A DNA stretch of 64,000 bases from positions 124,001 to 188,000 of the forward strand of contig NZ_RAZF01000004.1 of the NCBI RefSeq assembly GCF_003612555.1, read 5' to 3'. The notes under the pieces are model-generated. The model was not told where the DNA came from and did no database searches. It saw only the letters and a list, made by a program, of their open reading frames with translations. This DNA is from Acutalibacter sp. 1XD8-33. Lineage in GTDB: Bacteria; Bacillota; Clostridia; Oscillospirales; Acutalibacteraceae. Shown one piece after another: positions 55,647-64,000 of this stretch. Position 1 is the stretch's first letter; each line of letters begins with the position of its first letter. A program made the translations under genes and the position numbers.

Positions 55647-55911
55647 TTTCCTTTTGGAGTACAGGCAGTAAATCATAAACGCCTTCATACAATTGAAACA
55701 ATATTGCCGGATTCGGGTTTGCTTTCAAAACGCGGGAAGGGATGCGGCCGCATCCAGAGACAGAGGCTTTCCATGCGAAACCCGCCTGTTGCCAGGATAA
55801 CCGATCCTGTTCTCTCTTTTTAAAGCAATCCCCGGTATTCTGCTATCTATAGCCGGAATTTCCAAGAGCAAGGCTGTGGATACAGGTTCCAAGTATGAAG
55901 GAGGGAATGCT
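55647..55911. other. Gap upstream of sigK fragment
   Basis: 265 bases without a gene. It should hold the promoter of the sigma-K gene, which in other spore formers uses sigma-E; I could not identify a convincing sigma-E -35/-10 pair. Confidence 0.4.
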
Positions 55912-56259
55912 ATGTTCTTCTTGCACCTGCTGGATGTCTTTTCCCATATGATCTACCTGATGCTTCACGTTACCGGAGGAAACAGTTTTCCTAAAGCCCT
56001 CTCCTCTGCCCAAGAAAAGAGATGCCTGATGGAAATGTCCCAGGGCAGCGCCGCCGCCCGCCAGGATCTCATTGAACACAATCTCCGCCTGGTAGCTCAT
56101 ATCGTGAAGAAATATTATGTCAGCGGCAACGACCAGGAAGATCTGATTTCCATCGGCACCATTGGGCTGATCAAAGCCGTTGATACTTTCGATGCGAGCA
56201 AGGGAATCCGTCTTTCCAGTTACGCTTCCAAATGTATTGAAAATGGTATTATCACATGA
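55912..56259 (+). CDS. sigK: Pro-sigma-K, N-terminal half (SpoIVCB-like)
   Basis: A 115-residue product after GAAGGAGGG. A hydrophobic pro-sequence of about 24 residues (FFLHLLDVFSHMIYLMLHV) is followed by SFPKALSSAQEKRCLMEMSQ, AARQDLIEHNLRLVAHIVKK, DQEDLISIGTIGLIKAVDTF and IRLSSYASKCIEN, sigma-70 region 2. It then ends as GIIT and stop. In Bacillus subtilis and several Clostridia the skin element interrupts sigK exactly at CIEN. Regions 3 and 4 are missing here, and mobile-element genes follow. Intact sigma-K would drive late mother-cell genes, after SpoIVFB removes the pro-sequence. The C-terminal half would lie beyond the right edge. Confidence 0.85.
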   Translation: MFFLHLLDVFSHMIYLMLHVTGGNSFPKALSSAQEKRCLMEMSQGSAAARQDLIEHNLRLVAHIVKKYYVSGNDQEDLISIGTIGLIKAVDTFDASKGIRLSSYASKCIENGIIT

Positions 56260-56818
56260 CTTCCGCTTGGCAGGCAAGAGTGTCCCTGGGGAATGGGCTG
56301 TATTTGATGGGCAGGGATGGGAGGCTTGCGCCGCTGTATGTGCTCTCTTTCCGGCTGGGAAAGGTGCGGAAGGCTTCAGAGGCTCAACGGTATTCCTGCA
56401 AGTACGAGGATCTGCACACAGTCCCGGAGCGGTTGCGCTGGTGCCGGTACCGGCTGGGGCTGATGCAGAAAGAGGTGGCCCAGCAGCTCGGGATTCCCCT
56501 GAGTCAATATGAGGAAATGGAGCGGGGGTCTTGCCAGGAGTATCCCGCTCAGGCGATGGACAAGCTGGCAGAGTTGTATGGGGTGCCGGTTGAAGACTTG
56601 CTGGACGAGTACAGCCGGTTCCTTTATGACGGGCCAGGTGACCGGATACGGCGCGCTCGGGAGAGATTAGGGCTGAGCCGGAAAGCATTTGCCAAGCTGG
56701 TAGGTACTGGGGGAAAATGCGCGATTGGGAGATGGGACGGAAAAAGGTCAGTAAAAAGAGCTGGGAGAAGCTAAAAGAGTATCTTTCCCCTTTCTATTCC
56801 GAGCGTGATGTGCTATAA
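56256..56818 (+). pseudogene. XRE-type regulator, frameshifted near the C-terminus
   Basis: Overlaps the sigK stop by 4 bases. It contains two XRE-like HTH domains: LRWCRYRLGLMQKEVAQQLG with PLSQYEEMERG, and IRRARERLGLSRKAFAKLVG. In the first frame it ends at 56774, but family-like sequence continues one frame over from about 56720 (DWEMGRKKVSKKSWEKLKEY) to 56818. The first 50 residues are of uncertain origin and may be read-in from the sigK junction. It lies 36 bases upstream of a zeta-like kinase and could have been its antitoxin or regulator. Confidence 0.65.
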
Positions 56819-56853
56819 TTTTAGATAATGAAGCACAAACGGGGGTACACATC

Positions 56854-57411
56854 GTGAAACTATACACCATTATCGGCGGCGTGAATGGCTGTGGCAAGTC
56901 CAGCCTTACCGGCGCGCTGAAAGCGGAGCGTGACGACCTGGGCATCATCATCGACCCGGACAAGCTGTCGGCCAAGTTGGGCGGCTATGGGGCAGGCGGC
57001 AGGGCGGCGGTCGAGAAGATAAACGAGTGCCTTGAGAAGGGTCTGAACTTTACTCAAGAGACTACCCTTGCCGGAGCGCGGACGGAGCGCACTATCCGGC
57101 GGGCTAAGGAGCTGGGCTATACCATCCGGCTCTACTATATCGGCCTGGACAGCCTTGAGGAAAGCCTTTCGCGCATTGAGAACCGTGTCAGGAAGGGCGG
57201 GCACAATATCCCCCAGCGGGACGTGGAGCGGCGGTATGCAGGGCGGTTCGATGCTCTTGTGAAGGTGCTGCCCTACTGTGACGAGGCCCGGTTCTTTGAC
57301 AATGGCAACGGCTTTGTGGAGGTGGCGCGGTATGAGAACGGGGAACTGCTGGCTATCAACCCAGCTCCTCCTAAATGGCTCACAGAGCTCATGGGCATTT
57401 TGTCCGTTTGA
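56854..57411 (+). CDS. Zeta-toxin-like P-loop kinase
   Basis: A 185-residue AAA_33/zeta family protein. Walker A GGVNGCGKSSL is at residues 8-18, with IIIDPDKLSAKLGG, LNFTQETTLAGARTERTIRR (substrate-binding Glu) and YIGLDSLEESLSRIENRVRK with HNIPQRDVERRY, the zeta-type Arg motifs. Zeta toxins phosphorylate UDP-N-acetylglucosamine and block wall synthesis; many chromosomal relatives have not been shown to be toxic. GTG start; a TATAAT at 56814-56819 lies 35 bases upstream. No epsilon antitoxin is seen; the XRE gene upstream is the only candidate partner. Confidence 0.8.
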   Translation: MKLYTIIGGVNGCGKSSLTGALKAERDDLGIIIDPDKLSAKLGGYGAGGRAAVEKINECLEKGLNFTQETTLAGARTERTIRRAKELGYTIRLYYIGLDSLEESLSRIENRVRKGGHNIPQRDVERRYAGRFDALVKVLPYCDEARFFDNGNGFVEVARYENGELLAINPAPPKWLTELMGILSV

Positions 57412-57517
57412 TTTGCACAATATGAAAGTCCCGGAGAGAATCAAAACCTCCGGGACTGTTTTTATTTATATATTTTTTAACAACATAGTTTGTTGGTTTT
57501 TTCCTTTTTGGTATAGG

Positions 57518-57754
57518 TCAACGACCTATTTCACTTTGTTCTTTTGAAATTTGCCGTTCTGTTTTTGCAGTATTAGCTACAGCTTGCATCATCGCGATTT
57601 TTTCTTTGACAGAGCTTCTCGCACTGCTGATTTTATGTATCACTGCCTCCGCATGGGCCTGGGCTACACGCAGGGACAACTGGCGCATTCCTTCCTCGGT
57701 CTTGGGGTAGTGCATGACGAGCTTGATGGGCTGGCTTTTGGGCAAAGGCGGCAC
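57518..57754 (-). CDS. Small mobile-element protein
   Basis: A 78-residue protein (PIKLVMHYPKTEEGMRQLSL, AQAHAEAVIHKISSARSSVK) of a type I associate with mobilisation regions of Clostridia integrative elements; the function is unknown. The GTG start is only a few bases from GGAG, so the exact start is uncertain. It lies downstream of MobC on the same strand, where a relaxase gene would be expected. Confidence 0.55.
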   Translation of the reverse strand: MPPLPKSQPIKLVMHYPKTEEGMRQLSLRVAQAHAEAVIHKISSARSSVKEKIAMMQAVANTAKTERQISKEQSEIGR

Positions 57755-57817
57755 CTCCGTTTCAGCTACTCATATGTCTGGTGGCTTGTACAATATGCTT
57801 GCTAACGGTGGCAAATC

Positions 57818-58171
57818 CTAACTTTCTTCCTCAAAGTCAACCTTATCCACTTGCCCGATAACAGCCCGCTCAATCCGCTGTAAGGCATCCCGCAGATGCA
57901 TTACCTCTTCATAGTACCGCTCCTCGTCAACCAGCCCGGTAGCGTTCGCCATGAACGCAATCTGGTTCATGTTGCCGCCAATCTCTTTTAGCTCCCGGGT
58001 CATACCAAAGTAATCAGCGGGCGGAGCCTCACGGGGGTTGTAGTCGTGAATCAAGAGTCGAATATAGCCTGACCTTGTCAGCCCACATTTGCGAGCTTTG
58101 CGGGTAAGCCGCTTGTAGTCCTGCTCGGTCATCCTCATGTCAAACTTCTTTTGATTGCCTATAAAAATCAT
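57818..58171 (-). CDS. mobC: MobC-like relaxosome accessory protein
   Basis: A 117-residue protein: RMTEQDYKRLTRKARKCGLT with SGYIRLLIHDYNPREAP, a ribbon-helix-helix start, then KEIGGNMNQIAFMANATGLV and YYEEVMHLRDALQRIERAVI, the MobC core (GNNLNQIA-type). MobC helps the relaxase open DNA at oriT. No relaxase gene follows, so the mobilisation unit is incomplete. ATG at 58171 is used; MRMTEQ at 58138 is an alternative start. Confidence 0.85.
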   Translation of the reverse strand: MIFIGNQKKFDMRMTEQDYKRLTRKARKCGLTRSGYIRLLIHDYNPREAPPADYFGMTRELKEIGGNMNQIAFMANATGLVDEERYYEEVMHLRDALQRIERAVIGQVDKVDFEEES

Positions 58172-58449
58172 CCTTTCTATTATGTTATAACTCTAAAAAT
58201 CGGGGTTACAGGGTTCTCCCTGTCCAAGCTGCATTGTCCGCACACGTGTCCGCACGGGTGTCTGGACAAATGCGATGCTGGCTCGTTCCGAAACCTCGAA
58301 AACTCTCGTTTTCAAAACTCTGGCCCCTACGGGGCCATTTCTACCGCCAAGGCTCTTGCGTGTTCCAGGTGTTCCAGCGAAATATAGGGGTAAAAATATT
58401 TGCTTTCGCGTGGGAGGGTATGTTTTTGCCTGGAACACTCGGAACACCG
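58172..58449. other. Gap with GTGTTCC inverted repeats
   Basis: Between MobC and the primase remnant. GTGTTCCAGGTGTTCCAG (about 58360-58378) and CTGGAACACTCGGAACAC (about 58431-58448) form a long inverted repeat of doubled GTGTTCC units. Its position beside mobC is suitable for an oriT or operator. No gene is seen. Confidence 0.45.
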
Positions 58450-59772
58450 TCATGTTTGCTGAAAGTAAAGGCCGCCCATTTTAAGCTGTATGCCACAGAA
58501 CATGGCTGTCGGATTGACGGCTTTTCCGGCACCTGTTGGCTGCTTTTTTCTGATTTGAGCATACCCTTCCATACCCTGTTTGAATGTGGGGTAAGCATCC
58601 GCGTACTGACCGTTTTGCGTACACCAGTCCCGGTATTCACGGTAAACATCTTCGGTTCTGACTTCACCGTCTGGGTCGGGCGTGAGCATTTCCTCAACGA
58701 ATCTTGTCAGCTTGTCGCTGTCATGCTGATACTTTGCGGTAGCATTTTGCACCGATTCCGGCGGCTCAAACCCTGTTTCCTGCATGAGCCAAAGACCATC
58801 CAGACACCAATTCAACACGCCGGGCAGCTCATTTTCCAAGCGTTTTTTGAGGGTTTTATCCTGTTCTTCCGGCGAAAAATGCCGGTTAAACGGCAAGACT
58901 TTCACCCTTCCCGAGCTGAAAACCGTCACGTCATTTGCTTTTGGCAGGTGATTTGTGTTGATGAAAAGTTTGAACTTGGGCTTGAACTCGAAGCTGTTTT
59001 CGTTGAGAAACCGGGTGATCATGGTGTCGTTGCCGGTCAGTGTCTTCACCAAAGCCGCGCTCAAAACCATCTACTTGTCCGGCTCTGAGATGTTCACAGC
59101 CCTGGCTCCGGCCAGCTTTGCTATGTCCTCCGAGGGCCCGGAGCTGTTGTAGTTCTGCCGCAGGGCTATGGTTTCGGGCCGTGCCGCCTTGCCGTAGCCC
59201 AGGGCCTTTTGGAGGTAAGCGGCAAGGTCAAAATCGCCCAGCATAACGTCCTTGATGGTGCGCTCCCACAGTTCTGAGCGGGCCTCCGGGTCGTACTTCA
59301 CGCCGGAAATTGTTGCCAGCATATCGGCAGGGTTGTGTTCATGGAACACCATCGTTTGTAAATCCAGCGTGCCATTTGTGCAGTTGAACAAGTCTGGCTT
59401 GCTATCAAAGTCGCTGAGTTTTTCCGGGTAAATGCCCATCGCGTCTTTCAGAATTATCTCCCGGTAGTGGCGAATCTGCCACCGCTCCACGGCCTTGCGG
59501 TACTCGTTGCGTTCGCGGCCCTCGGGTAGGGAGAGGGCATAAATCACCAGCTCATCCGCAAGTTTTTTACATAGCTCCATGACTTGGAGGTTGCAGGGGT
59601 CCGGCTCCCAGGGCTTGCCGGTGAAGATGCACCACATCTTCCGCTCGGGGACGTAGCGGGCGACGTCGCGGTAATAATCGGCGAACAGATTGCTGTTGCC
59701 GATGTCGGTCGTTGTGTATCGGGAGTTAGCTTCAGGCACGAATTTAACCAGACAGTTAGAGAAATTTGTCAT
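58450..59772 (-). pseudogene. P4-family primase/helicase (D5-like), broken
   Basis: The N-terminal D5 region is good: FVPEANSRYTTTDIGNSNLF, RKMWCIFTGKPWEPD, LFNCTNGTLDLQTMVFHEH. After DLAAYLQKALGYG the Walker A block of relatives (GPTSRNGKGT) is missing, and the sequence jumps to ARPETIALRQNYNSSGPSED. A TAG after VNISEPDK at 59071 replaces the Lys codon of relatives. The frame continues with VLSAALVKTLTGNDTMITRF, KLFINTNHLPKANDVTVFSS and VLPFNRHFSPEEQ. With no ATP site and a stop it cannot work as a helicase. Confidence 0.85.
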
Positions 59773-59933
59773 CGCTTCACCCCCTCCTTTGCCTTCTCCC
59801 AGGCCTTTTTCTCCCAATAGCGGCGGTTCATCTCCCTCACTTTATCGGGATTTTTCTTGCGCCATTGGCGCTGGTACTCTCGCTGGGCCTCACGCGCCAG
59901 CTCTTGAATGGCTTTTGTTTCTGCTGTAGAAAT
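59769..59933 (-). CDS. Small conserved mobile-element protein, ATT start
   Basis: Reads STAETKAIQELAREAQREYQ, RQWRKKNPDKVREMNRRYWE and KKAWEKAKEGVKR, 54 residues, highly charged and helical, and overlaps the primase start (GCGATGAC). It begins with ATT directly after AAAGGAGGA, where relatives as I remember them begin ATG; no other start is available near the ribosome site. Either a rare ATT start or an inactivated gene. Confidence 0.55.
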   Translation of the reverse strand: MSTAETKAIQELAREAQREYQRQWRKKNPDKVREMNRRYWEKKAWEKAKEGVKR

Positions 59934-60074
59934 TCCTCCTTTGTGATAGCCGCTTGACAGTGGCTGTATTTCTTGCTATACTCAGTATATAGCAAGAAAA
60001 AGATAAAGCCAATGTTTCTTTCTACATTTACAAAATCGCAAGAAAATCGCACACTACAAAAGGAGGTAGATTTC

Positions 60075-60713
60075 TTGTCAGACAAATATAATGACATATT
60101 CCCAACCCGGCTCAGACAGCTAATTGAAGAAAAACCTACTACCATCACAGCGGTTGCAAGGGAGCTGGGTATATCACGACAGGCAGTTAGCCAATACACC
60201 ATGGGTATAGGACAGCCGAACGCTGACAAGCTGCTGCAAATAGCAGAGTATTTCGATGTGTCCTGTGACTGGCTGGTGGGGCGGCAGGGCGGGGCCAAGA
60301 GCCTTGATATGGATTTGGCTGGGGTGTGTAAGTTTCTCAATATGAGCGAGGAAAGTGTTGCGTTTTTGCGAGAATTTGGAGAATTTTCAAAAGACTATCC
60401 CGGAACATTGGGCGCGCTCTTTGCCAGTGAGGAGTTCCGTGAGGTTATGAAAAGTATGCTGAGATACCGCTTCAGCCTGGAAGTACAGAAGATTGCCGAG
60501 GGCAAAAAAATGGAAAGAAGAGAGAAAAACAAATTGCTGAACGCCGTTTTCATTGAACACTTTCTCGCTACAAACAGCCTGGGGAATGTTATTCGAGATT
60601 GGGAAACTGAAATAATAGGAGAGAAGAAAAGCGTTTCTGATAGTATCTACGAAACACTAAAAGCTGAGCAAGATAAAGACTCTGAGCTAAAACCGTCATT
60701 TTGTCGGTTTTAG
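60075..60713 (+). CDS. Phage-type XRE repressor
   Basis: A 212-residue protein with an N-terminal HTH: FPTRLRQLIEEKPTTITAVA, RELGISRQAVSQYTMGIGQP and ADKLLQIAEYFDVSCDWLVG. The C-terminal 140 residues (LNMSEESVAFLREFGEFSKD and following) form a helical domain of unknown kind, without a LexA-like peptidase motif. TTG start 8 bases after AAGGAGG. It is divergent from the primase block and is probably the regulator of this mobile element. Confidence 0.8.
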   Translation: MSDKYNDIFPTRLRQLIEEKPTTITAVARELGISRQAVSQYTMGIGQPNADKLLQIAEYFDVSCDWLVGRQGGAKSLDMDLAGVCKFLNMSEESVAFLREFGEFSKDYPGTLGALFASEEFREVMKSMLRYRFSLEVQKIAEGKKMERREKNKLLNAVFIEHFLATNSLGNVIRDWETEIIGEKKSVSDSIYETLKAEQDKDSELKPSFCRF

Positions 60714-61111
60714 AACGTGACGGAAATAATTTCCGTCACGTCAAGACAGTAATTTGCTCAGCGATAAAAAGTCGTTGACCAGAACAGCAATTTGTCGTTT
60801 TGATTTTGCGGGGTGGTGGTTGCGGATTACGCCACCACCAGAAAACAACGTGGGCGAAACTGTTTCGGCGACGTTGCAACAAAATGGTCGCGGACAAAAT
60901 GTCCGTGACCATCCTTACAGAATATTTTGTGTCTATAAGTTCATTTTCCCTCAAATCCCCATTGCGTAATTGAAATATCTCTGCGAATATGGTATAATTA
61001 CTTATAAATAGTGCAGTTTGTGTCGAACACCTATTCTCACTATAGACAAAGCGATATAATTTGATAAAATGAAACTATAATGTCATTACAATAAAAAAGA
61101 GAGGACAGAAA
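60714..61111. other. Non-coding gap with stacked palindromes
   Basis: ACGTGACGGAAA-TAA-TTTCCGTCACGT (60716-60742) is a perfect 12-bp palindrome just after the repressor gene. GTGGTGG...CCACCAC (about 60814-60840) is another. TGGTATAAT near 60990 is an extended -10. No gene is supported. The composition turns AT-rich at about 60960. Confidence 0.5.
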
Positions 61112-61657
61112 ATGGAAACTATTTTTATCGCAGGAGTTTATGGCGTAGGAAAGAGTACCTTGTGTAGGTCGTTAGGCAATTCCTTAAACATTCCATCTTT
61201 CTCTGCTGGAGATTTAATAAGCAAGATAAATGGCGAAGATTACAAACAAAGCAAGGCCGTAAAGGATGCGGTATACAATCAAGAAGTACTTGTTTCTGAG
61301 GTCGAACTAAAACTGAAAAAGCATCCAATAATTTTGCTTGCGGGACATTTTTGCATTTTTAATGAACAGAATCATGTTGAGGTGTTGCCATATGGGGTGT
61401 TTGAAAAGCTACATATAAAACAAATACTGCTTTTGGACGCTGATACAAACCAGATAATTAGCAATTTACTGTCAAGGGATAAGAAATTCTACGACTATGA
61501 ACAGGTTGTATGCCTGCAAAAAGAAGAACAAACTGTTGCTAGACATATTGCGAATCTCATAGAGTGTCCGCTTGATGTCCATTATATGTCTTATGACGCA
61601 AACGATTCAGCGCATTGCGTTTCTATACTTACGAAAAACGGCATCATTTTTGATTGA
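61112..61657 (+). CDS. P-loop NTPase, adenylate-kinase-like
   Basis: A 181-residue protein. Walker A GVYGVGKSTLCRSL is at residues 8-21; FSAGDLISKINGEDYKQSKA resembles the substrate-binding part of small-molecule kinases, and ILLAGHFCIFNEQNHVEVLP is the Walker B strand. It may phosphorylate a nucleotide or other small molecule, or act as an ATP switch. The ATG follows AGAGAGGACAG. AT-rich codon use sets it apart from the GC-rich host genes. It heads a cluster with the ASCH, membrane and GNAT genes. Confidence 0.7.
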   Translation: METIFIAGVYGVGKSTLCRSLGNSLNIPSFSAGDLISKINGEDYKQSKAVKDAVYNQEVLVSEVELKLKKHPIILLAGHFCIFNEQNHVEVLPYGVFEKLHIKQILLLDADTNQIISNLLSRDKKFYDYEQVVCLQKEEQTVARHIANLIECPLDVHYMSYDANDSAHCVSILTKNGIIFD

Positions 61658-61690
61658 AAACTTATATCACTATTCGACGGAGGTACATGC

Positions 61691-62101
61691 GTGACAGCTA
61701 TTCTTATATCGATCAAGCCTAAATACATTGAGAAGATATTATCTGGCGAGAAAACATATGAATACCGCAGAAAAATGGCTCGTAAGAAACCCTCCATAAT
61801 GATTATCTATTGTACTGCTCCTGTCAGTAAAGTAATTGCATATACGAAGATCATCAGCCAATTAAGCGCTTCTCCAGATGCTTTATGGAACATGACTAAA
61901 TCAGGTGCAGGAATCAGTTATGATGAATACATGAGATACTTTTCCAATTCTAAGATAGCATACGCATATGAGATTGGAGAAGTAATAAAATTCAATTGTC
62001 CCAGGGAACTTCTGGATTATGGCATAGATCATGCGCCGCAATCATTTATATACATCAATACTGACCATGAAATCTGTGTGCCGAACTGTGATAGGCTATG
62101 A
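61691..62101 (+). CDS. ASCH-domain protein
   Basis: A 136-residue protein: AILISIKPKYIEKILSGEKT with YEYRRKMARKKPSIMIIYCT is the ASCH (PUA-like) core, followed by SKVIAYTKIISQLSASPDAL and KIAYAYEIGEVIKFNCPREL. ASCH domains bind RNA or modified nucleosides, and some deaminate or hydrolyse them. GTG start 8 bases after GGAGG. It lies 33 bases after the NTPase gene and 10 bases before the next gene, so they form an operon. Confidence 0.75.
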   Translation: MTAILISIKPKYIEKILSGEKTYEYRRKMARKKPSIMIIYCTAPVSKVIAYTKIISQLSASPDALWNMTKSGAGISYDEYMRYFSNSKIAYAYEIGEVIKFNCPRELLDYGIDHAPQSFIYINTDHEICVPNCDRL

Positions 62102-62111
62102 GGTGAGAATA

Positions 62112-63173
62112 ATGGAGAGTTTTGCGTTTTGGTATAAAGAACGCGAGAATGAATCTGGTGTATCTGTGTCAGATGAGTCTGGTGAATTGGCTGCGCATGT
62201 GCATTTCAATTTATGGTGTGAATGTGGTTGGAAAAAAGAGAAGGAACACTTACAAGGCACTGATTACCCGTATTTGGATATTGGATTCCGGGTGAAGAGA
62301 CTTTCAAAAGCACAGGCATTATTTTTCTTCCTGCCTTTTTCTATAACTGAAGCGAAAAAAATGCAATGTATCGAGGATCTTGGGAGAAAATTTCTTGAAA
62401 ACGCTTTGCTGGCTGATGCTCTATTCAATGATAGCCATCACGTTACGATTTCTGCTAACAAGAAAGAAATTGATGTGCGCTGTACATCGAAGGATGATCA
62501 TTTTAAAATCTATCAATTGGATATCGTAAATGACATAAGTCTCGAAGCCTTTGGTGAAGGAACCATACTCGAGATAAAAACAGGTCGTATACTAAGTAAT
62601 ATGGATGAATCTGAGCAGGAATCGGACTACTATTTCCGATTTCGCATAAAAAACCAACCCCTTGATTTTCTGATTCATCGATATAAGCCGCCGACCGGAG
62701 TCATCCAAGGGCTATTTAATACTACATATATGATTGATTTTCGTTACCATAACATTCGCGGACTTCATAATACTCTCGTCGAGCGTTTCCACGAAAAACT
62801 GAATCATCCCGTTCCGGTTCAACAACTTCATTTCTTCTTAATGACGAAGGCATACGTCGATGTATCCAACACAAATTTCAAAGTCAGGAAAATCGAACAA
62901 GATGTTTGGAAAGACTATGTTGATGGGCTTGATACAGAAGATTTGGTGGCCTACCATTATGCTGACAAACCCAAGACAGAGAGTAACTCGAAATATATCG
63001 ATTCCAGTGAACTTTTCGCTAAATTCAGAGTTGAGCAGCAGGTTATATGGCGGTATGTTCTTATTACTCTCGGACTTGGTGCAGTGGGATCACTCTTAGG
63101 AAGTAGTATTTTGGCGTTGAAAGACATTATTTGGCAACTGATTTGCAAATTTCTCTTGACACCGCCTACCTAA
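62112..63173 (+). CDS. Protein of unknown function with a C-terminal membrane helix
   Basis: A 353-residue protein. The soluble part (1-305) is rich in aromatic and charged residues (AHVHFNLWCECGWKKEKEHL, YPYLDIGFRVKRLSKAQALF, TIEIKT-like strands) and matches no family I know. One or two C-terminal hydrophobic segments (IWRYVLITLGLGAVGSLLGS and DIIWQLICKFLL) anchor it in the membrane with the bulk in the cytoplasm. Operon position after NTPase and ASCH genes, in AT-rich DNA on a mobile element, suggests a cargo such as defence; this is inference. Confidence 0.65.
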   Translation: MESFAFWYKERENESGVSVSDESGELAAHVHFNLWCECGWKKEKEHLQGTDYPYLDIGFRVKRLSKAQALFFFLPFSITEAKKMQCIEDLGRKFLENALLADALFNDSHHVTISANKKEIDVRCTSKDDHFKIYQLDIVNDISLEAFGEGTILEIKTGRILSNMDESEQESDYYFRFRIKNQPLDFLIHRYKPPTGVIQGLFNTTYMIDFRYHNIRGLHNTLVERFHEKLNHPVPVQQLHFFLMTKAYVDVSNTNFKVRKIEQDVWKDYVDGLDTEDLVAYHYADKPKTESNSKYIDSSELFAKFRVEQQVIWRYVLITLGLGAVGSLLGSSILALKDIIWQLICKFLLTPPT

Positions 63174-63195
63174 AAGCATATAATATATTACCTTC

Positions 63196-63224
63196 TTGAC
63201 AATATTGGCTCAACTGTGTATAAT
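63196..63224 (+). promoter_or_regulatory. Sigma-A promoter of the acetyltransferase gene
   Basis: Perfect TTGACA (63196-63201), 17-base spacer, perfect TATAAT (63219-63224), 26 bases before the ATG. Confidence 0.9.
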
Positions 63225-63249
63225 GTAATATGGAAGGGAGGCTCTACTT

Positions 63250-63798
63250 ATGGACAATATAACTATCCAGCAACTTAGAAAAGTTGACTCGGATTCAGTT
63301 CGGATGGTTGGTACTTCCTTGGCTTTTCTGCGGGACGATTATCCTGGTTTTGGACACTGGTATAATCAGACAGTTGTTCCTTCCATTGGAGACAATCGGA
63401 TGGTTTTCTTTGCGTCGCCTCAAGGCGACTGCAATCGTTTGGCTGGTGCAATGATATTGAAGAAGACTTTCTATGAAAAAAAGATTTGCACATTATACAT
63501 TCCTGACGACTTCCGTGGACGCGGTATTGGTACGGCGTTTATGAAGAAAGCAATCATAACACTAGGTGACAGACATCCCGTCATTACGGTTTCAGAGCCG
63601 CGAGTAACTGAGTTTGATTCTTTCCTACAGCGATTTGGTTTCAAGTTGTATGACAGCTATAGTGGGTATTATCGTTCTGGTTTTCACGAGTTATCATATA
63701 ATGGCCCTATCGAGCCATTGGAGTGTAACCCCAAAAAGGTCGTCTACTATTTTATGCCTGGATTCATTTCACAAGTGCCTTCTGTCACTTGTTGTTAA
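63250..63798 (+). CDS. GNAT-family N-acetyltransferase
   Basis: A 182-residue GNAT protein. The acetyl-CoA loop is in LYIPDDFRGRGIGTAFMKKA (about 85-104), preceded by the beta-4 strand KKICTLYI and followed by VITVSEPRVTEFDSFLQRFG and KLYDSYSGYYRSG. The acceptor is unknown. The ATG follows GGAAGGGAGG. It has its own strong promoter and terminator, so it is expressed separately from the ASCH operon, although AT-rich like it. Confidence 0.85.
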   Translation: MDNITIQQLRKVDSDSVRMVGTSLAFLRDDYPGFGHWYNQTVVPSIGDNRMVFFASPQGDCNRLAGAMILKKTFYEKKICTLYIPDDFRGRGIGTAFMKKAIITLGDRHPVITVSEPRVTEFDSFLQRFGFKLYDSYSGYYRSGFHELSYNGPIEPLECNPKKVVYYFMPGFISQVPSVTCC

Positions 63799-63803
63799 GA
63801 GAC

Positions 63804-63847
63804 AAGAAGAGAACCATCTTTGGTTTCAAGGATGGTTCTCTTCTTTT
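63804..63847 (+). terminator. Strong terminator of the acetyltransferase gene
   Basis: GAAGAGAACCATC pairs perfectly with GATGGTTCTCTTC, followed by TTTT. The last 150 bases of the window hold no supported gene. Confidence 0.9.
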
Positions 63848-64000
63848 GGCAAAAACGATGGCAATAGAAATGCAAGCGCACGCTAAAAAAATATTGAGCA
63901 TACTAAAAGGTAAATCTGAGCGCTCAAGACTTCTAGCGAAGAGATTTAGCACCTCCGTAATCCGGGTATCTTCCTTCGAAATACAGTGTGGATAGTTGAT

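Follow-up and report, generated by a model that had tools for sequence, protein, structure and literature searches.

The sporulation gene sigK of Acutalibacter sp. 1XD8-33 is interrupted by an element of 9,554 bp. We have analysed it in a stretch of 64,000 nucleotides of contig NZ_RAZF01000004.1 (the window; C50:124001-188000 of the 3.62-Mb draft genome G000, which has 106 contigs and is rated 99.98% complete) and in the sequence just beyond the window's end. In-register halves of sigK flank the element, it carries its own large serine recombinase (LSR) and a short direct core at its ends, and no other complete sigK was found in the draft genome. It is a skin-type sigK-intervening element. We consider it likely that this element, which resembles integrative and mobilizable elements (IMEs), is excised by its own LSR in the mother cell, and that sigK is rebuilt in this way; we propose that a helix-turn-helix (HTH) protein controls the step. 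That excision takes place, and in the mother cell only, is inferred here from sequence. The window's element is a well-supported new sigK-intervening element of a family that is widespread in the gut.

Results

The frame at 55912-56259 encodes 115 amino acids and has the C-terminal end SSYASKCIENGIIT before its stop codon. The NCBIfam SigK models cover it from position 5/6 to 114/116 only (143-144 bits, E 5e-42 and 1e-41), and the one Pfam match is to sigma region 2. Sequence derived from sigK stops at 56244/56245, and the last four codons (GIIT) together with the TGA at 56257-56259 belong to the inserted element. The original prediction, made from the letters alone, had described a truncated sigK without regions 3 and 4; this was borne out, and the 5' half had been placed correctly. 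A plain nonsense mutation is ruled out, since the sequence after CIEN is unrelated and the C-terminal half follows 9.55 kb further on. That half, whose absence from the contig the original prediction had counted against itself, lies just beyond the window end on the same contig and strand, and the LSR expected downstream is found directly before it.

Joining the halves at the shared core AAATG gives one SigK frame of 230 aa with the joint SSYASKCIEN-EILMFFRSGKK. It reaches 299 bits with NF004471 (cut-off 252) and 289 bits with TIGR02846, just under the cut-off of 298.65; the uninterrupted sigK genes of 18 genus members (276-288 bits) likewise stay below that cut-off. No second complete sigK was found in the draft genome, a case that the original prediction had also raised. 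The sole other full-length SigK-like frame, on contig C72, was rejected as a complete sigK because it fits SigE better (352 bits with the SigE model NF006158, cut-off 339, and 249 with the SigK model TIGR02846); its score with the SigE model TIGR02835 is 328 bits (cut-off 348.6). The genome thus encodes SigE, and it also encodes a SpoIIID-like protein. Coordinates of all features are collected in Table 1.

Table 1. Features of the split sigK locus and its element. Plain numbers are window positions; a position in locus L017 plus 54000 gives the window position.
Feature	Position	Strand	Basis or remark
Putative sigK promoter	55659..55694	+	SpoIIID-like box GTACAGGCA (55659-55667), sigma-E/K-type -10 TCATACAATT (55685-55694)
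sigK 5' half (N terminus and region 2, to CIEN)	55912..56244	+	Frame translation, Pfam and NCBIfam profile matches
Element, part inside the window	56241..64000	+	Core positions; whole element 9,554 bp, AAATG at both ends
attL core AAATG	56241..56245	+	Common to attR; predicted crossover dinucleotide AA 56242-56243
HTH gene, candidate excision factor	56256..56774	+	In frame with the LSR across the predicted attP
Zeta-toxin/AAA kinase-like protein, 185 aa	56854..57411	+	PF06414 38.6 bits
NikA/MobC-like mobilization accessory protein	57818..58171	-	PF21983 53.7 bits
P4/D5-type primase-helicase gene, two frames	58450..59817	-	PF08706 82 bits, PF03288 29 bits
Xre-type regulator, as listed (true start may be internal)	59973..60713	+	PF01381 45.9 bits
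AAA/adenylate-kinase-like protein, cargo	61112..61657	+	PF13207 55.1 bits
ASCH-domain protein, phage-defence candidate PDC-M11B, cargo	61691..62101	+	PADLOC 136.7 bits
380-aa frame, cargo (true start may be internal)	62031..63173	+	No family match
GNAT-like protein, cargo	63250..63798	+	Weak PDC-M11A match, 26.1 bits
Large serine recombinase, 561 aa	L017:10115-11800 = C50:188115-189800	+	PF00239, PF07508, PF13408; PHROG 95 integrase 380 bits
attR core AAATG	L017:11795-11799	+	
sigK 3' half (regions 3-4)	L017:11795-12158 = C50:189795-190158	+	Sigma70_r4 58.3 bits; SigK models 109/111 to 226/230

The LSR is full length, with the Resolvase, Recombinase and zinc-ribbon domains all present; the Recombinase domain has 47 matches in the 3.6-Mb genome. 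The stop codon of the LSR gene is the TGA of AAATGA at attR, and the final A of this motif is sigK sequence outside the shared core. The arms of the predicted attP form an imperfect inverted repeat centred on the AA, and in the related element of genome G008 the two ends share only AAA. On the other side of the element the start codon ATG of the HTH gene and the stop codon TGA of the truncated sigK frame overlap as ATGA, in G000 as well as in the relatives G008, G020 and G001. The HTH gene therefore lies directly behind the putative sporulation-type promoter of sigK, and its function as a recombination directionality factor (RDF) is putative.

Upstream of sigK, most of 26 aligned sequences have a box like GTACAGGCA or GGACAAGC, about 15 bases and then TCATACAWAT, which we take to be a SpoIIID box and a sigma-E/K-type -10 by their consensus. 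Promoter elements of this kind have been reported for C. difficile sigK (PMC5025042). The window's own promoter was located by motif and not by the alignment, its leader being longer: from the promoter motifs to the start codon (55695-55890) there are some 150-190 bases more than in the aligned relatives. The LSR gene is preceded by TATGNTATACT, an extended -10 of the sigma-A type that is conserved in four aligned elements, and the LSR is probably made constitutively. In that case the limiting factor would be the directionality factor, for which the HTH protein is, by its position, the best candidate that we can propose.

Taking the best ten candidates per genome, the HTH domain was found in at least 16 of 295 genomes of the order, at 17 places. 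Eleven of these are directly behind a sigK N half, one stands inverted beside a C half, and five have no sigK match in the stretch examined. The HTH part is most similar to phage-type repressors and Xre/SinR-like folds. In one IMG/VR contig (L166, 5887-6552) the HTH extension lies behind an apparent phage terminase gene, at a junction that resembles an off-target attL.

If the element ends are joined to a circle, the LSR and HTH frames of G000 become a single frame of 737 aa. At attR, 78 loci with an LSR and a sigK C half could be traced, 76 of them distinct (the other two are the G008 and G020 records) and all related by descent, hence not independent. The first stop of the LSR frame is the core TGA in 53 of these 76, while 13 run through the core and 10 stop earlier. 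The core is in the LSR frame in 70 of the 76, and 32 distinct LSR lengths occur among the 69 close in-frame loci. Circle joints were tried for 25 elements, of which 23 gave a result (L067 and L063 gave none). In 11 of the 23 predicted circles the LSR frame extends by 93-219 codons into a conserved, mostly HTH-bearing domain (53% mean column identity in an alignment of eight of the 11). The full frames, measured from where the LSR match begins and hence up to three residues short, have 737 (G000 and G003), 753 (G008), 780 (G012), 763 (L069), 700 (L076), 684 (L106), 797 (L085) and 807 aa (L065, L072 and L075); the extension domain is shortened in L076 and L106 and has lost its end in L069. The LSR of a second insertion site in genomes G017 and G014 (see below) keeps its terminal TAA in both the integrated form and the predicted circle.

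A fused LSR-HTH frame was not found in the 295 assembled genomes (best ten candidates per genome), where the longest frame with the HTH domain has 352 aa. Together with the lack of an attP in the assemblies searched, this makes the fusion a prediction from the circle joint. A looser attP pattern gave ten viral stretches, none with an LSR, sigK or HTH match, which we take as chance. Two further records were rejected: a circular C. difficile record of 24 kb with an LSR 38.6% identical carries ethanolamine-utilisation genes and is not an excised skin element, and for a Ruminococcus albus plasmid LSR (47.6%), considered as a fused form, the annotated gene has 571 codons and a joined HTH domain is not named.

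Within the genus, 29 genomes including the window's own were searched with TIGR02846. The gene is uninterrupted in 18 and split in 10, and the remaining genome (G023) has one match, of the SigE kind. Five genomes (G000, G003, G008, G012 and G020) have both halves at the first site with the same joint, and G001 has the N half alone on a short contig. In four others (G005, G006, G014 and G017) the sigK match begins only at about position 60. The second position is between HIVKK and Y, at about codon 65; in G006, G014 and G017 the N-terminal piece is on the same contig, 5-11 kb upstream, and the LSR beside the junction is a different one (542 aa in G017, to which those of G014 and G006 are 82% and 60% identical). 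The first piece of G005 was not found on its contig. Next to its LSR, the 5-kb site-2 element of G014 (L057, 10348-12281) has the gene for a UmuC/DinB-type polymerase, a neighbour of 140 aa and a frame of 86 aa. A third position, between SYVSR and IEKKA, is near the 3' end of sigK. Here G005 (C7, C76) has a 525-aa LSR of a third family, with the last sigK piece on another contig, and in G017 (C10, C54) the last piece, also on another contig, directly follows an LSR that is 72% identical to that of G005 over 465 aa. With its site-2 element and the break at the third position, sigK of G017 is in three pieces on two contigs. As read from these genomes, sigK is split at two positions in the genus and also at a third near the 3' end, and one gene can hold two insertions.

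Relatives of the LSR reach well beyond the genus. Among the best 80 of 500 matches in a species-genome collection (58-92% identity), from Gemmiger, Faecalibacterium, Holdemania, Tyzzerella, Mediterraneibacter and Clostridium fessum among others, 74 have a sigK C-half match downstream, at 500 bases or less in 71 and at 1.4-4.5 kb in three; three more have the N half only and three have neither in the stretch examined. The search for SigK pieces was extended to twelve genomes reached through such loci. Anaeromassilibacillus An200 (L148, G029:C56) has three ordered sigK pieces. Between them lie 6,043 and 6,247 bp, and a different type of LSR closes each gap (66% identical to the site-2 LSR and 62% to the site-1 LSR). 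When joined, the pieces keep one frame until a break at the third position, and the fourth piece was not located. At two loci, L061 (found by its LSR) and L155 (by its HTH domain), the site-1 element is apparently inverted relative to sigK. Faecalibacterium is not known as a spore-forming genus; in Faecalibacterium longum (L139; G030:C11, C14) sigK pieces lie about 41 kb apart, with additional matches labelled SigE-like and SigF/G-like from our reading of the match pattern. In a survey of 120 genomes of the family, 112 had a match and at least 11 had three, the number expected of a split sigK together with SigE; we derive no prevalence from these counts.

Comparison of individual elements indicates that they move between species and exchange cargo. 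Between G000 and G020 the sigK halves are 64% and 74% identical at the DNA level, and the LSR is 91% and the element blocks are 91-95% identical; similar elements in such divergent sigK genes indicate transfer between species. Between G008 and G020 the sigK halves are 96% and 99% identical, the LSR is 89% identical and the cargo is different, which indicates separate acquisition or replacement at one site.

From its gene content the element appears to be integrative and IME-like with candidate defence cargo, and the original prediction of a sigK-intervening element with a cargo of its own is supported, with the C half and the LSR on one contig and a content unlike that of the prophage-like skin. 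IME traits are the NikA/MobC-like gene and the D5 primase; no relaxase match was found among the element frames scanned with Pfam. Phage structural genes were likewise not found among these frames, nor among the seven scanned with PHROGs. For the 380-aa frame Pfam, NCBIfam, PHROG and PADLOC gave no match at E 0.001. The primase-helicase gene is unbroken (492 aa) in G003 and G020, and the cargo frames of G020 begin with residues nearly identical to those of G000. Elsewhere the cargo is different, with a type II restriction-modification system and PDC-M49A/B in G003, a type III restriction-modification system in G008 and a UvrD-like helicase in G012; the PADLOC scans there covered chosen frames (four, four and one, respectively).

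Discussion

We propose that in the sporulating mother cell the LSR would recombine attL with attR at the AA of AAATG. The element would leave as a circle and sigK would be rebuilt, and the chromosome bound for the spore would retain the element. Firing of the sigK promoter would lead to synthesis of the HTH factor and this in turn to excision. The frame of 737 aa in the circle, if translated, could change the direction of the LSR after excision; should the HTH part be an RDF, the circle would encode a fusion of the integrase-RDF type.

The idea can be taken further, to a self-wiring switch in which attP lies within a single gene for a recombinase and its HTH directionality factor, so that integration into sigK cuts that gene. 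The recombinase would then be stopped by a TGA that sigK supplies, and the HTH factor would be left under the host's sigK promoter. Excision would restore both sigK and the recombinase-factor fusion, and the fusion would disfavour re-integration. With three LSR families at three sigK positions, one sporulation gene could need at least two independent excisions. This extended scheme we regard as on balance doubtful.

Several points weigh against developmental excision under control of the HTH protein. The case is built from sequence. The strict attP pattern, which would be the direct sign of a circle, had no match in viral_contigs (0) or in 391 genomes of the class (0). The RDF role is proposed from the position of the HTH protein, which resembles ordinary Xre-type regulators, and the structure model of the HTH extension is weak (mean pLDDT 64), with best structural matches that are mostly HTH regulators. 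The SpoIIID-like match of the genome (107 bits) is below its cut-off of 111.5. G003 has TAAAAATG where others have the ATGA overlap, and elements of the Lachnospiraceae type show a long overlap of the sigK and HTH frames, with no ATGA coupling seen. Seven of the 23 circle frames (L082, L096, L102, L105, L079, L100 and L093) end 8-50 codons past the core without an HTH domain, and five (G020, L068, L107, L130 and L138) stop before the core, so that not every element has the HTH part; the LSR of L107 and that of L138 are over 1.4 kb away from the core and may not be part of the element. Finally, the primase-helicase gene of the window's copy is broken by an in-frame stop.

This last defect, together with the lack of a relaxase match in the frames scanned, would fit a degenerate element that has lost the ability to excise, which would leave the locus unable to yield sigma-K. 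We think this very unlikely, because the LSR is full length with its three domains, the cores are intact and sigK is seamless across the joint. Still less weight, in fact next to none, can be given to an assembly artefact: the genome is a draft in 106 contigs, but five members of the genus have the same arrangement, and of 80 related LSR genes 74 are followed by a sigK C half. An ordinary mobile element that merely uses the conserved sigK as a landing site, leaves at low frequency without developmental control and mostly blocks late sporulation until it exits would fit the movement between species seen in G000 and G020, the different cargo in the nearly identical sigK genes of G008 and G020, and a split sigK in only 10 of 29 genus members. 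Against it stand the conserved sporulation-type promoter ahead of the sigK half and hence of the HTH gene, two split frames that are both open with a seamless joint, and the excision of described sigK elements in the mother cell (PMC5025042, PMC6957869). We judge it unlikely. A different question concerns only the control step and is compatible with mother-cell excision as such. The HTH protein might be a repressor of the element or an integration helper, with the frame across attP giving integration-dependent control. Its best matches and the precedent of integration-dependent immunity in mycobacteriophages (PMC4557955) speak for this. Less easily explained is why a repressor, placed behind the sigK promoter, would be made just when the element leaves. 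This is quite possible, and we lean only slightly against it.

Developmental excision of the sigK element, if it takes place as proposed, extends such elements from a few described spore formers to a large family in gut Firmicutes, spanning Acutalibacter, Gemmiger, Faecalibacterium, Holdemania and Lachnospiraceae, where spores matter for transmission between hosts. The elements appear to be mobile, cargo-exchanging carriers of restriction-modification and candidate defence genes and not fossils. The coupling of a mobile element's exit to the promoter of the gene that it interrupts is a testable proposal, and where two LSR families split one sigK gene together, the coordination of two excisions within a cell becomes open to study.

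With the skin element of B. subtilis (SpoIVCA, Skr) the window's element shares the interrupted sigK, the rejoining by an LSR (predicted here) and a five-base core, which in skin we take to be AATGA at the same position between CIEN and E. The B. subtilis skin is a prophage-like region of 48 kb (PMC13141910), in which spoIVCA is read from a sigma-E promoter and is overlapped at its 5' end by the gene for Skr, an RDF of 64 aa (PMC6957869). In contrast, the element described here measures 9.6 kb, its scanned frames include no phage structural gene, and the promoter before its LSR is sigma-A-like. Closer in its logic is skinCd of Clostridioides difficile, where the LSR CD1231 is constitutive with a sigma-A-type promoter (PMC5595907, PMC5025042) and the RDF CD1234 is mother-cell-specific under sigma-E and SpoIIID (PMC5025042). 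This scheme of a constitutive LSR and a sporulation-controlled RDF is the one that we propose. The two known elements differ in site (PMC5025042, PMC6957869) and in orientation (PMC5025042), so that the original prediction erred in assigning skin elements to a single place in sigK. The comparison with skinCd is by description, and in the passages considered (PMC5025042) there is no mention of an HTH gene overlapping the sigK half.

Elements or phages in sigK are already known as a kind, from B. subtilis, C. difficile, C. perfringens, C. tetani and Alicyclobacillus (PMC13141910, PMC5553647) and from B. cereus biovar anthracis (PMC10745906), and those known excise in the mother cell (PMC5025042, PMC6957869). 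Our literature search found no paper that treats sigK, the skin element and Oscillospir-terms together. For gut-family sigK elements, an attP within an integrase gene or a skin with defence cargo, the arrangement was not found in titles and the beginnings of abstracts, with the archaeal integrase papers left unread. A non-prophage element with restriction-modification genes in a sporulation gene has been described as gin, in gerE of Bacillus cereus ATCC10987 (PMC5595907); it differs in its gene, in having three serine recombinase genes and in its size of 28.6 kb.

Fusions of serine integrases to RDFs made in the laboratory favour attL x attR and reduce attP x attB recombination (PMC5737554). 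Those fusions are artificial, while the fusion frame described here is confined to the predicted circle and its HTH part is a putative RDF. An attP inside a gene is not new in itself: in mycobacteriophages such as BPs it is located inside the repressor gene, and in SSV-type archaeal integrases the attachment site is within the coding region and integration alters the product. Mycobacteriophage BPs and its relatives have integration-dependent immunity (PMC4557955). What may be new is the splitting of sigK at multiple positions by multiple recombinases and the recombinase-HTH frame across attP. In BPs and SSV a repressor or tyrosine integrase gene is cut, whereas here it would be a serine recombinase-HTH frame whose HTH half would come to lie behind a developmental promoter of the host.
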